Source of the DNA: Haloarcula rubra
GTDB taxonomy: Archaea; Halobacteriota; Halobacteria; Halobacteriales; Haloarculaceae
Direction: 5' to 3'
Length of the DNA stretch: 64,000 nucleotides
Assembly: GCF_019599465.1 (NCBI RefSeq)
Contig: NZ_RKLR01000002.1
Span: 310,001 to 374,000 of the forward strand
Shown here: one piece after another, positions 798 through 5,415 of the stretch
How positions within the stretch are numbered: position 1 is the stretch's first letter
Layout of the letters: the number at the start of each line of letters is the position of its first letter
Notes under the pieces: generated by a model
What the model was told of the DNA's origin: nothing
Database searches by the model: none
The model's input: the letters and a program-made list of their open reading frames with translations, nothing else
Position numbers and translations under genes: made by a program

Positions 798-1418
798 TCA
801 CTCGCGCCACGGCCGCACGCCTTCTGCGACGAGTTCCGCGTCCGACCCGTCCAGCCGTAGCTCCGTCACCGAGCAGTTCGGCGGCGAGTGGGCGGTGATG
901 GTCGCGTCCAGCGAGCGCTCGGTCACCGCGGCGAGCAGCACCTTGACGACGCCGCCGTGCGTGACCAGCACCACCGTCTCGTCCGGCCCGACCGTCGCCC
1001 GCAGGCCGGCCCACGCCGACGAGACCCGGTCACAGAACGTCTCGACGCTCTCGGCGTCCTCCGGTGTGGCGTCGAGCGACGACACGCTCTTCTCGGGGTC
1101 GTGGTCGGGGTGGCGCTCGAACAATGTCTCGGCCAGAAAGCCCTGATAGACGCCGAAACCCCGCTCTCGCCACGCGCTGTCGACGGTCGGGTCGGGCAGT
1201 TCCGCCGCCGTCTCACGCACCTGTTCGGTCGTCTCGCGGGTCCGCCGGAGGTCCGAGGTCACGAGGCGGTCTACCGTTCGCTCGTCGGCGAGCCACGACC
1301 CCAGCGCCCGCGCTTGCTCGCGGCCGTGGTCGGTGAGTCGCGTCGGGGCCCACCCCTGCACCCGCCCCTCGCGGTTCCAGTGTGTCTCGCCGTGTCGAGC
1401 GAGGAGAACGGTCGCCAC
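798..1418 (-). CDS. Histidine phosphatase (phosphoglycerate mutase-like) family protein
   Basis: Cytoplasmic phosphatase-superfamily protein of 206 residues. The N-terminal LLARHGETHWN holds the phospho-accepting His and Arg. TSDLRRTRET, WRERGFGVYQG and VTHGG supply the remaining phosphate-pocket Arg, acid and second His, so the catalytic set is complete. Homologues act on phosphoglycerate, cobalamin precursors or other phospho-esters, and the sequence does not decide between them. The start is six bases beyond the stop of the upstream tatC on the same strand, so co-transcription with tatC is likely, though no functional tie to protein export is evident. Confidence 0.85.
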   Translation of the reverse strand: MATVLLARHGETHWNREGRVQGWAPTRLTDHGREQARALGSWLADERTVDRLVTSDLRRTRETTEQVRETAAELPDPTVDSAWRERGFGVYQGFLAETLFERHPDHDPEKSVSSLDATPEDAESVETFCDRVSSAWAGLRATVGPDETVVLVTHGGVVKVLLAAVTERSLDATITAHSPPNCSVTELRLDGSDAELVAEGVRPWRE

Positions 1419-1424
1419 GGGGTG

Positions 1425-3086
1425 TCACTCCTGTGGTTCGGCCGTACTGCCGCCGCGGTACCGCGCGACCAGCAGGCCGCCCTCGAAGAGGACGACGAGG
1501 GCCGCGGCGACGCCGACGGCGGCCGTCGTCGCCAGTCCGAACTGGTTCACCAGTCGGAACAGCGTCGGGTCGGGACTGGAGAGGTAGCCGACGACGATGG
1601 CCACCGTCCAGACCGGCAGGCGGGCCTTCCGGAGGCCGCGCCACAGTTTCACGCTGCCGTAGTAGTTCTTGTTGACGTACGCGGTCAGTTCGAACAGCAC
1701 GATGAGGCCGCCACCGACGAGTATCGGCGGCGCGAGGCCGACCTCGGCGAGCGTGCTCGTGACGCTCGTCGGCAACTGCCCGTAGTAGCCCGTCGGCACC
1801 GGCGCGGGGCTGAGGACGTAGCCGACCAGCGCGAACAGGGCGTAGGCGTAGGGCCGCCGGTTCGCGAGGTCCTCGGCGGTCGGGACGGGCGAACTGCTCC
1901 CGGTCCACTTCAGCAGGAGGAGCGTCCCCTCGAACAGGCCGATCATCGTCACGGCGACCATCAGCGGCGCCATCCCCGTCGGGTCGGGGCTGAAGACGAA
2001 CGCGATGGCGGCGAACGCACCCCAGAAGTAGAGGCGCCGGTCGACGAGCCACCGTCTGGTCGTGACGCCCATCATGATGGCGAGCATCACGAACAGCGGA
2101 ATCTGGAAGACGAGCGCGAAGAAGCCCAGCATCAGGATGATGAGGTTGAACGTCTCACCGAGGCCGAACGCGAGGTCGGCGGCCCGGTCGGAGTAGGTGA
2201 TGAAGTAGTCGAACATCGCCCGCAGGACGGCGAAGTACGCGAAGCCGACGCCGATGGCCGCGAGCACCAGACTCGTCGGGACCGCCGCGAGGTAGTAGCG
2301 CCGCTCGCGGGGGTACAGCCCCGGCCGCATGAACAGGTACGTCTCGTAGACGAACACCGGGAGGGCGGCGATGAAGCCCACCAGCGAGGCGACCTTCAGG
2401 CGCGCGAGAATCAGCGCCAGCGGGCTGTAGACGTGCGGGCAGTCCGCACCGGAGACGGTGCTCTCGCCGCCGGGTTGGGCGTCGACGGCGAACTGCCCGC
2501 ACGCCTCGGCCGGGCCGTCGAGGAAGGAGTACCAGAGGAAGTTGATGAGTTCGTCGGACGCCGGGAGGGTCAACACGGCGACGGCGGCCATCACGCCGAC
2601 GACGATGAACAGGCGCGTCGCCATCTCCTCGACGTGGTCGGCCAGCGGCATCTCCTGGTCGTCGGGCGCGCCGCCGATGCCGGCCTCGCCGTCGGGGTCG
2701 TACCCCGGGTCACCGGCCCCCGCCGAACCGGTCGGCGATGGCGTCGCCGGGATGCCCCAGTCCGTCGGGACGTCGGCGGGCGTCGCGGCGCTAACCTCGT
2801 CCGGGTCGCGGTCGAACAGGCCCGCTCGGGTCGGCCCCGGGAGGCCGTGGGCGCCCGCCGTCGTCTCGTGGCCGCCGACCGGTCTGTCGCCCGGGCCGGT
2901 CACGTCGTCGGACGCGCCGTCGTCGGCCTGTCCGGGGTCGTCCTCGCTCGGGCCCATCTCGTCGGGACGACCGTGACGGTCGTGGCCGCGTTCCTCGGGG
3001 TGGACGTCACTGTCGCTCCGGTCGTCCGAGGACAGTAGCGGGTCCTCGGGCCGTGGGCGGTCGTCGTCTGCGTCCCCGTCCACCAT
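1425..3086 (-). CDS. tatC: Sec-independent translocase subunit TatC with long N- and C-terminal extensions
   Basis: Membrane receptor for twin-arginine signal peptides, 553 residues; ordinary TatC is about 250. Residues 1-145 are a hydrophilic, Asp/Gly/Pro-rich cytoplasmic extension. The TatC core starts at MPLADHVEEMATRL (146-159), keeping the glutamate of the HLxEL motif, and RPGLYPRERR (about 254-263) keeps the signal-peptide-contacting glutamate of the first cytoplasmic loop. The canonical final hairpin (SPDPT then LFEG, about 360-394) is followed by two further hairpins with the same pattern, near 419-473 and 497-543. It is divergent from the double-TatC gene across 124 bases, the haloarchaeal tatCo/tatCt arrangement. 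The extra C-terminal hairpins are the odd feature. Confidence 0.9.
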   Translation of the reverse strand: MVDGDADDDRPRPEDPLLSSDDRSDSDVHPEERGHDRHGRPDEMGPSEDDPGQADDGASDDVTGPGDRPVGGHETTAGAHGLPGPTRAGLFDRDPDEVSAATPADVPTDWGIPATPSPTGSAGAGDPGYDPDGEAGIGGAPDDQEMPLADHVEEMATRLFIVVGVMAAVAVLTLPASDELINFLWYSFLDGPAEACGQFAVDAQPGGESTVSGADCPHVYSPLALILARLKVASLVGFIAALPVFVYETYLFMRPGLYPRERRYYLAAVPTSLVLAAIGVGFAYFAVLRAMFDYFITYSDRAADLAFGLGETFNLIILMLGFFALVFQIPLFVMLAIMMGVTTRRWLVDRRLYFWGAFAAIAFVFSPDPTGMAPLMVAVTMIGLFEGTLLLLKWTGSSSPVPTAEDLANRRPYAYALFALVGYVLSPAPVPTGYYGQLPTSVTSTLAEVGLAPPILVGGGLIVLFELTAYVNKNYYGSVKLWRGLRKARLPVWTVAIVVGYLSSPDPTLFRLVNQFGLATTAAVGVAAALVVLFEGGLLVARYRGGSTAEPQE

Positions 3087-3210
3087 CTATCTGGAAGCGC
3101 TTTGGCGGTTGGTGGTTGTAAACTTTCTTTTCGAGCGGCCGCGCTGGGGCCGTGAACGCGCCCGTGTGATGAACAAATTGATAACGCAGAATCGGCTACC
3201 CTCACGGACG

Positions 3211-5415
3211 ATGGCGAGTGCAATCGACGAGGACACGGTCCAGACGGTCCAGAGTGGCCGTGCGACGCTGGGTGCGATGCTCAGTACCGCCCAGACCCAC
3301 CTCCAGAAGGTGTTCATCGTCTTCGTCGTCGGGATGATAGGGACCATCATGGCCCTCCAGTACGGGGCCTGGGACCGACTCCGACAGGACCTGCTGTACT
3401 CCCAGATGGACCTCACCACGCAGGAGGCGACCAGTATCGTCGCCGTCACCCCCTTCGACGTCATCCTCTTGCAGGTGAAGATAGGGGCCGTCGTCGGCAT
3501 CCTGATGTCGCTCCCCCTGCTCGTCTACTTCGGCCGCGACGGGTTGCGGCGTCGCGGGTGGTGGCCCGCCGAGAAGATTCCGCTCTGGAAGGGCGCGCTG
3601 TTCGTCGTCATCAGTCTGAGTCTGTTCGCCGCCGGCGTCGCCTACGCCTACGAACTGTTCTTCCCGCTGATGTTCAACTTCCTCGCCGGCAACGCCGACG
3701 CCGCCGGGTTCGTGCCCCAGTACTCCATCGTCAAGTGGGCACAGTTCGTCTTCCTGCTGGCGGCCTCGTTCGGACTGGCCGCGCAGTTGCCGCTGATGAT
3801 GACGGTCCTCTCGTACACGGGCATCGTCCCCTACGAGACGTTCCGCGACAAATGGCGCTACGCCGTCATCGCCATCTTCGGGTTCGGCGCGCTGTTCTCG
3901 CCGCCGGACCCCTTCACGCAGATTATGTGGGCCGCGCCGCTGTGTGGCCTCTACGCGCTGAGTCTCGCGCTCTCGAAACTCGCGGTGACGGTCAAACGCT
4001 CCAGCGACCTCGTCAGCACTCGCCGGGTCGCCGTCGAGCACTGGAACACCGTCCTCGGGTCGGCCGTCCTCGTCGGTGGGCTGACCTACTACGTGGTGAC
4101 GACGAGCGCGTTCCAGTACGTACAGGCCGTCGAGGCGGTCGCCGCACAGTACTCGACCCGACTCACCGGGAACCTCGCCCGGCCCGAACTGTTCGGCCTC
4201 TCCGTCGAGGGGACGGCCGTCCTGCTGGCCGCGGTGTTCGGGTCGTTCGCGACCGTCGCCGTCGTCTACTACCACGTCCTGCAGGCGCTCGACCAGAACG
4301 CGGTCGGGCCCGGCCGTCGCCACGGCGACCCGACGGCCATCGACATCGGCGAACTCAGTGCGTCGGCCATCGAAGTCGCGCCGCCGGAGGCCTTCGAGGA
4401 GATGACCGAGGAGGAGGCGCTGGCCCACGCCGACCGCGCCCTCTCCGAGGAGAACCAGGAGAAAGCCCAGTTGATCCTCGACCGGTGGGACATGGCCCAC
4501 GAGGACGACGGGCCCGAGGGGACGGCCACGGAGAGCGCCGACGGCGACGCCGAGGCGGACGAGGAAGAGGACGTCCTCGCCTCGACGACGGCGGGGATGG
4601 TCAACGCCTTCACCGACGACGAGACCACCGAGGACGACATCGGCGGCTACTACTACGACATCCGCTTCATCTTCGACGCCATCGCCTCGAAGGCGTTCTG
4701 GGTGCTGGGCGTGTTCGGCGTCGTGCTGTCGGCGGCGTTCCTGTTCCTGTACCAGGGCGGTATCGGCCGCATCCAGCGCATCTTCGTCAGCCGTCTCCCG
4801 GAAGGGATGGCGGAGGGCGTCAACATCGTGACGCTCCACCCGGTCGAACACCTCGTGTTCATCGTGAAGTTCTCGACCATCCTCGGCGCCATCTCGGTGG
4901 TGCCGCTGTTGCTGTACTTCGCGTGGCCGGCGATGCGCGAACGCGGCCTCGTCGTCGGCGACCGGAACGTCCTCCTCGTCTGGGGCGGGACGCTGTTCGT
5001 GGCGCTCATCGGCGGGAGTCTGCTCGGGTTCCTCTACGTCGCCCCGATGACCATCTCGGCCATCGCCTACGACCAGTTGCAGGCCAACATGGTCATCGCC
5101 TACCGCATCAGCAAGTTCGGGTGGCTGGTGTTCTTCCTCACCATCGGCATCGGTCTGCTGGCGGAGATCCCGGTGACGATGTTCCTGTTCCACCGCGCGG
5201 GCATCGTCCCGTTTCACCTGATGTACGAGCGCTGGCGCGAGGTGGTCATCGGCATCGTCGCCCTCTCGGCTATCCTCTCGCCGAACGGCATCTTCACGAT
5301 GTTCATCGTCGGCATCCCGACGGCGGCGGCCTACCTGCTGGGACTGGGCATCCTCTGGGTGTACACGCTCGGCGGCCGCCGGACGCCGAAGGGCCGGAGC
5401 GAACCGGCCGACTGA
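3211..5415 (+). CDS. tatCt: Tandem (double) TatC, haloarchaeal TatCt
   Basis: Integral membrane protein of 734 residues with two TatC-like halves, roughly residues 15-275 and 475-725. They are joined by two extra membrane segments and an acidic linker rich in Glu and Asp. Each half ends in the typical last hairpin (FSPPDPF in the first, LSPNGIF in the second). Haloarchaea route many proteins through Tat, and a fused TatC beside a single TatC is characteristic of them. In both halves the two glutamates that contact signal peptides in single TatC look replaced: THLQK in place of HLxEL, and Gly where RxGLxxxE has Glu. The ATG at 3211 was chosen because the preceding in-frame codons run through the promoter region and lack TatC character. 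Confidence 0.9.
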   Translation: MASAIDEDTVQTVQSGRATLGAMLSTAQTHLQKVFIVFVVGMIGTIMALQYGAWDRLRQDLLYSQMDLTTQEATSIVAVTPFDVILLQVKIGAVVGILMSLPLLVYFGRDGLRRRGWWPAEKIPLWKGALFVVISLSLFAAGVAYAYELFFPLMFNFLAGNADAAGFVPQYSIVKWAQFVFLLAASFGLAAQLPLMMTVLSYTGIVPYETFRDKWRYAVIAIFGFGALFSPPDPFTQIMWAAPLCGLYALSLALSKLAVTVKRSSDLVSTRRVAVEHWNTVLGSAVLVGGLTYYVVTTSAFQYVQAVEAVAAQYSTRLTGNLARPELFGLSVEGTAVLLAAVFGSFATVAVVYYHVLQALDQNAVGPGRRHGDPTAIDIGELSASAIEVAPPEAFEEMTEEEALAHADRALSEENQEKAQLILDRWDMAHEDDGPEGTATESADGDAEADEEEDVLASTTAGMVNAFTDDETTEDDIGGYYYDIRFIFDAIASKAFWVLGVFGVVLSAAFLFLYQGGIGRIQRIFVSRLPEGMAEGVNIVTLHPVEHLVFIVKFSTILGAISVVPLLLYFAWPAMRERGLVVGDRNVLLVWGGTLFVALIGGSLLGFLYVAPMTISAIAYDQLQANMVIAYRISKFGWLVFFLTIGIGLLAEIPVTMFLFHRAGIVPFHLMYERWREVVIGIVALSAILSPNGIFTMFIVGIPTAAAYLLGLGILWVYTLGGRRTPKGRSEPAD

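Follow-up and report, generated by a model that had tools for sequence, protein, structure and literature searches.

In Haloarcula and some other haloarchaea, TatC, normally a six-helix protein, appears to have ten helices. Comparisons of alignments and profiles support a tandem duplication of TM5-TM6 within the gene, which would have given three hairpins (A, B and C) facing the same way. The gene was analyzed in a 64,000-nucleotide stretch of Haloarcula DNA, referred to as the window. tatC lies at 1425-3086 on the minus strand and encodes a 553-residue protein with a Pfam TatC domain (PF00902), predicted to have ten helices. Beyond TM6 the protein continues for about 155 residues, here called the tail, which form two units resembling TM5-turn-TM6. 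By sequence the tail is nearest, among named matches, to Haloarcula pellucida (93%) and to seven further species of the genus.

The tatC gene and its three hairpins

PF00902 matched residues 150-379 of the 553-residue TatC (E=4e-45; 154.6 bits against a cut-off of 25.1), and no significant Pfam match was found outside these residues, tail included. Scores against the two NCBIfam TatC equivalogs fell below the curated whole-protein cut-offs (TIGR00945, 121.1 bits against 132.7; TIGR01912, 79.2 bits against 192.6). The canonical six-helix core covers residues 150-397 (1896-2639, minus strand), as placed by Pfam and by Foldseek matches to 9e01, 4b4a, 9dzz and 4hts. The HVEEM and YPRERR motifs of the core align with E. 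coli TatC, and their glutamates, invariant in 39 sequences, correspond to E15 and E103 of the E. coli twin-arginine binding site. Ahead of the core, and of the Pfam match starting at residue 150, the translation has a long acidic N-terminal extension (residues 1-137; 2676-3086, minus strand). This extension is of low complexity, and the open frames upstream of the core vary greatly in length among homologues.

The Haloarcula genome carries two TatC genes and one clear TatA gene. The second TatC gene, a double TatC of the TatCt type with two PF00902 matches (3109-5415, plus strand), is the divergent neighbour of the first; it probably begins downstream of the TTG given in the ORF list. The two genes stand head to head with their listed ORFs nearly abutting, an arrangement also seen in relatives (e.g., G043, G060 and G061). 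Seven bases past the tatC stop begins a histidine-phosphatase-like ORF with a ARHGETHWNREGR motif (798-1418, minus strand), which is possibly co-transcribed with tatC.

The initial annotation had described three hairpins in this protein, each with an SPxP turn and an LFE end, and all three were located, on the minus strand. Hairpin A, the canonical TM5-TM6 (residues 347-397; 1896-2048; FSPDPTGM...LFEG), was placed by alignment to E. coli TatC (9dzz_A) and by the model helices; its turn, S366-P-D-P-T370, is at 1977-1991. The two extra copies were delimited by hhalign and the model helices. Hairpin B spans residues 405-470 (1677-1874; LSPAPVP...LFEL), with its turn, S426-P-A-P-V-P431, at 1794-1811. 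Hairpin C spans residues 480-543 (1458-1649; SSPDPT...LFEG), with its turn, S504-P-D-P-T508, at 1563-1577. The core of the linker joining them, residues 471-479 (1650-1676), lies inside a strongly basic loop predicted to be cytoplasmic. The extra units are thus real as first described, with numbering for B and C that was about three residues too low; their GY pairs are at 422-423 and 500-501.

Hairpin self-alignment with BLOSUM62 gave scores of 58 (A-B), 69 (A-C) and 52 (B-C). None of 2000 shuffles scored as high (means of about 24, SD 4.5), and the TM1-2 and TM3-4 hairpins of TatC gave no match to A, B or C. Profiles built from 39 sequences for A and 26 each for B and C were compared by hhalign, with P values of 6.4e-8 (A-B), 1.3e-8 (A-C) and 1.8e-8 (B-C); against TM1-2 or TM3-4, P was 0.24-1 throughout. 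Column shuffles that preserved composition and conservation, including versions preserving local hydropathy, reached maxima of 17, 22 and 32, as compared to observed scores of 44, 46 and 42 (A-B, A-C and B-C, respectively). Taken together, the self-alignment, the profile P values and the column-shuffle controls place the homology of the three hairpins far above chance. When the tail was used as a query in tail-less genomes, it weakly matched hairpin A of the TatC there. A tree of single units, in which few columns leave the order of branching unreadable, placed A, B and C each in its own cluster. Hairpins of the double TatC matched A more weakly than B and C did (D1A-A, E=0.004; D2A-A, E=0.015), and its inter-domain linker showed no homology to any of the three hairpins. 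Because B and C lie nearer to A than do the hairpins of TatCt, they derive from TM5-TM6 of the same gene.

The distribution of charged residues was assessed in 26 sequences. Mean R+K was 3.5 before TM5, 2.9 after TM6 and 6.6 between B and C, as compared to 0.0, 0.1 and 1.0 in the turns of the three hairpins; the B-C loop (residues 472-490) combines its mean of 6.6 R+K with 0.4 D+E. Since the inside loops are basic and the outside turns are almost without Arg or Lys, hairpins A, B and C are predicted to share one orientation, with the turn outside. An AlphaFold2 model of residues 138-553 (mean pLDDT 81.9, pTM 0.69) placed helices at 351-365 and 372-395 in A, at 411-425, 440-449 and 453-476 in B, and at 479-502, 508-515 and 520-546 in C. 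The turns of B and C are longer than that of A and contain short additional helices in the model. From the charge pattern and this model, TatC is predicted to have ten helices, four beyond the canonical six.

Foldseek searches with the 138-553 model returned TatC structures as the only significant PDB matches (E about 1e-5), and the sequence match to known TatC structures was confined to the core. The tail modelled alone had the same helices as in the longer model and gave no significant match in a fold search of the PDB. The fold likeness of B and C to TM5-TM6 therefore comes from sequence and from helix-turn-helix elements in matching register (e.g., A 351-365 and B 411-425) rather than from superposition. 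The tandem TM5-TM6 duplication put forward in the initial annotation is upheld by the homology of the units, their separate clusters, their common predicted topology and the helix-turn-helix models.

Distribution, conservation and transfer of the tail

Rather than being a general haloarchaeal feature, the tail occurs mainly in one family, that of the window. There, the TatC core was found in 140 of 146 genomes and the tail in 70 of 146. The tail search had given 76 matches in this family, six of which were removed as short-TatC genomes of g68 and g70 that match via hairpin A. In this survey of haloarchaeal TatC, the extension was recovered in 9 of 22 genera of the window's family and in g36 and g185; in the remaining genera examined in the family, TatC stops at TM6. 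Order-wide, 69 of 392 genomes have the tail, and these belong to the window's family, g36 (family f4) and g185 (family f7). A 70th order-wide match (G106) belongs to an M48 peptidase rather than a TatC and shows where the background lies. In its C-terminal membrane part (G106:C1:2270046-2270282; L159), this peptidase resembles hairpin B (RPVVWGAALLGGYLLSSA, E=2.7e-7), a resemblance taken as background.

A search of 393 genomes across the phylum recovered no tail beyond the order or outside haloarchaea; matches in Methanoperedens and an uncultured archaeon are the normal hairpin A and were rejected as tails. Intermediates with a single extra hairpin were not seen among the proteins examined, and none of eight loci with short TatC genes had a tail relic beside the gene, the best matches being hairpin A. 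The suggestion that the ordinary length of haloarchaeal TatCo might already include the tail is refuted, as most haloarchaeal TatC finish right after TM6.

Fixed positions in every hairpin are R351/R411/R489, F363/Y423/Y501, S366/S426/S504, P369/P429/P507 and E386/E466/E535. All units share one spacing, with F/Y 12 residues after the Arg and Ser three residues further on. The Ser position is Ser in 29 of 39 sequences in A and in 25 of 26 in B, and C has 21 Ser, 3 Thr and 2 Asn among 26. D368, P369 and E386 of hairpin A are invariant (39/39). Aligned with E. coli TatC, F363/Y423/Y501 correspond to M205, S366/S426/S504 to T208 and E386/E466/E535 to E227. In E. coli TatC, M205, T208 and Q215 face a polar residue in the helix of TatA or TatB (PMC5201420). 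At the Q215 equivalent, hairpin A has Met or Pro, and Gln is not retained in A, B or C. The turn acid is Asp in 39 of 39 sequences in A and Asp (18) or Glu (3) at position 506 in 21 of 26 in C; it is found in 0 of 26 in B, where P429 and P431 are invariant. The turn acid of E. coli TatC, D211, is essential (PMC13186574), and its pairing with D368 could be off by one or two residues. With B lacking the turn Asp and C usually acidic there, the three copies are probably non-equivalent.

In conservation the tail falls well short of the core (57% compared to 76% for the mean majority residue). The M205 and T208 equivalents are among its few near-invariant residues, and 12 of its columns are invariant over 25 diverged sequences. 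Within Haloarcula, hairpin A had a median dN/dS of 0.11, hairpin B of 0.30 and hairpin C of 0.40, as compared to 0.18 for TM1-4, so that values for the tail are about three to four times that of A. Selection on the tail is purifying, and more relaxed than on the core.

Trees of the core and the tail were compared for the carriers in other families. The g36 core falls within its own family, f4 (100/99), and also clusters with a tail-less g36 member, the two cores being 84% identical; the g185 core groups with f7 (98/88). The tails of g36 group instead with those of g4, a genus in the window's family (97/97), and the tails of g185 with those of Haloarcula (100/99). A constraint tree uniting the tails of the window's family was rejected (AU p=0.00018). 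This conflict between core and tail shows that the 3' segment moved by itself at least twice, from different donors. Contamination is unlikely, since each recipient genus has several tail-bearing genomes that are 98-99% complete. Deep branches of the core tree are weak, and the tail may have arisen once or more than once within the window's family. The conflicting trees show the tail to be a 3' gene segment passed between haloarchaeal families independently of the TatC core.

Possible roles of the extra hairpins

TatB docks at rest to TM5/TM6 of E. coli TatC, and TatA is also able to dock there (PMC5201420). The same hairpin is a tilted, probably mobile domain of the E. coli TatBC ring, in which the TatB helix, bound to TM5 of one TatC, lies over the signal-peptide site of the next (PMC13186574). 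The idea of an "exit hairpin" at a channel mouth, as first proposed, finds no support in these descriptions of a docking site and mobile domain (PMC5201420, PMC13186574). The extra hairpins may, as was also proposed, alter contacts within the oligomer. Archaea have TatA and TatC and no TatB, and Tat is the main secretion route in haloarchaea (PMC2910488). The key helix position of TatA, equivalent to Q8 of E. coli TatA and E8 of TatB, is Glu in 22 of 22 haloarchaeal sequences from 11 genera, and no difference at this residue is linked to the tail. Most tail carriers in the window's family have one TatA gene, and carriers in f7 have two or three. An association of the tail with a single TatA gene was suggestive in the former, was reversed in the latter and was dropped. 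Short-TatC genera with at least two TatA genes, some in adjacent pairs, were seen in G043, G246, G232 and G311 (L196-L200).

As a tentative reading, possible rather than probable, we propose that hairpins B and C are added, non-equivalent TatA-docking surfaces in a two-component TatAC translocase. Each would present the Glu-bearing TatA helix with a docking surface like that of TM5/TM6, but weaker or specialised. More than one TatA could then be held by, or handed on from, a single TatC next to the signal-peptide site, which might ease assembly of the TatA oligomer. Copy A would retain the full essential function, its turn Asp included. The match of the invariant positions of B and C to the M205/T208 patch, with a partner Glu in all 22 TatA sequences examined, argues for docking. 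Against it stand the missing Q215 Gln in all three hairpins and the missing turn Asp in B, the faster evolution of the tail relative to A (about three to four times in dN/dS), a TatA gene number that does not consistently track the tail, and a tail-only model with no significant PDB match. In addition, the conserved positions could maintain the hairpin fold instead of binding TatA, and so they are compatible with the main rival as well: that B and C fill the space which TatB or resting TatA takes up in the TatC ring of other systems, or bridge to a neighbouring TatC or to TatCt, thereby stabilising oligomers, and do not bind TatA. We consider this structural role a real, if somewhat doubtful, possibility. 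Archaea have no TatB (PMC2910488), the E. coli TatB helix spans neighbouring TatC (PMC13186574), and, in the window as in relatives, tatC and the double TatC are divergent neighbours; loss of Asp in B and the faster evolution of the tail also suit such a role. However, near-invariant positions equivalent to M205 and T208 in a fast-evolving tail exceed what a filler needs.

Other explanations give the tail no part in the translocase or a different origin. A relaxed, nearly neutral by-product of duplication, tolerated and functionless, would agree with dN/dS values above those of the core (0.30-0.40 compared to 0.11-0.18) and with the many relatives that live without it. Purifying selection and repeated acquisition make this improbable: dN/dS is well under 1, the 12 invariant columns persist across the 25 diverged sequences, neither reduction to a single hairpin nor a relic beside short TatC was seen, and other families gained the tail at least twice and retained it in several species. 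We give hardly any credence to the tail being an unrelated membrane domain of four helices, fused to TatC and similar to TM5-TM6 in composition only. The tail-only model found no significant fold match and Pfam stops short of the tail, but the profile comparison with shuffled-column controls favours homology, as do the weak match of the tail query to hairpin A in other genomes and the invariant positions at the same spacing.

Combining docking with transfer, we suggest with some doubt that the tail may be a horizontally mobile Tat add-on, in which two TatA-docking hairpins would give a one-site TatC several docking sites, alter TatA:TatC stoichiometry or gating, and be exchanged among haloarchaea as a 3' gene segment independently of the core.

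Comparison with known Tat systems

TatC is given as a six-helix protein, for example in a 2026 structure paper (PMC13323110). No account of extra TM5-TM6 copies was found in the literature searched, a weak negative because few haloarchaeal Tat papers were among it. The number of TatA that gather at TatC, and the docking surface they use, form a central open question of Tat transport. Here the docking-site hairpin itself seems to have been multiplied by nature, in Tat-dependent secretors, and then shared across families. The extra copies could allow docking to be separated from the essential function of TM5-TM6, which is impossible in a six-helix TatC.

Enlarged TatC proteins are known in other forms. 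The TatC of Myxococcus xanthus, solved in a TatBC complex (PDB 9e03), is also enlarged, but by large periplasmic loops rather than hairpin copies (PMC13186574). The adjoining double TatC of the TatCt type (3109-5415) is likewise enlarged through duplication of a TatC part; there, the entire six-helix domain is duplicated, and the linker is unrelated to A, B and C. Other single TatC proteins of haloarchaea (TatCo type) have cores about 51-68% identical to that of the window, as measured with the short forms aligned, and many share the long N-terminal extension. Unlike the TatC of the window, their chains end 0-14 residues past TM6. Canonical TatC (PF00902; E. coli 9dzz, Aquifex 4b4a) has in common with the Haloarcula protein the six-helix core, the signal-peptide glutamates and the TM5-SPxP-TM6-LFE hairpin. 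Whereas canonical TatC reaches its C-terminus soon after TM6, the Haloarcula TatC adds four helices, with TM5-TM6 repeated twice.
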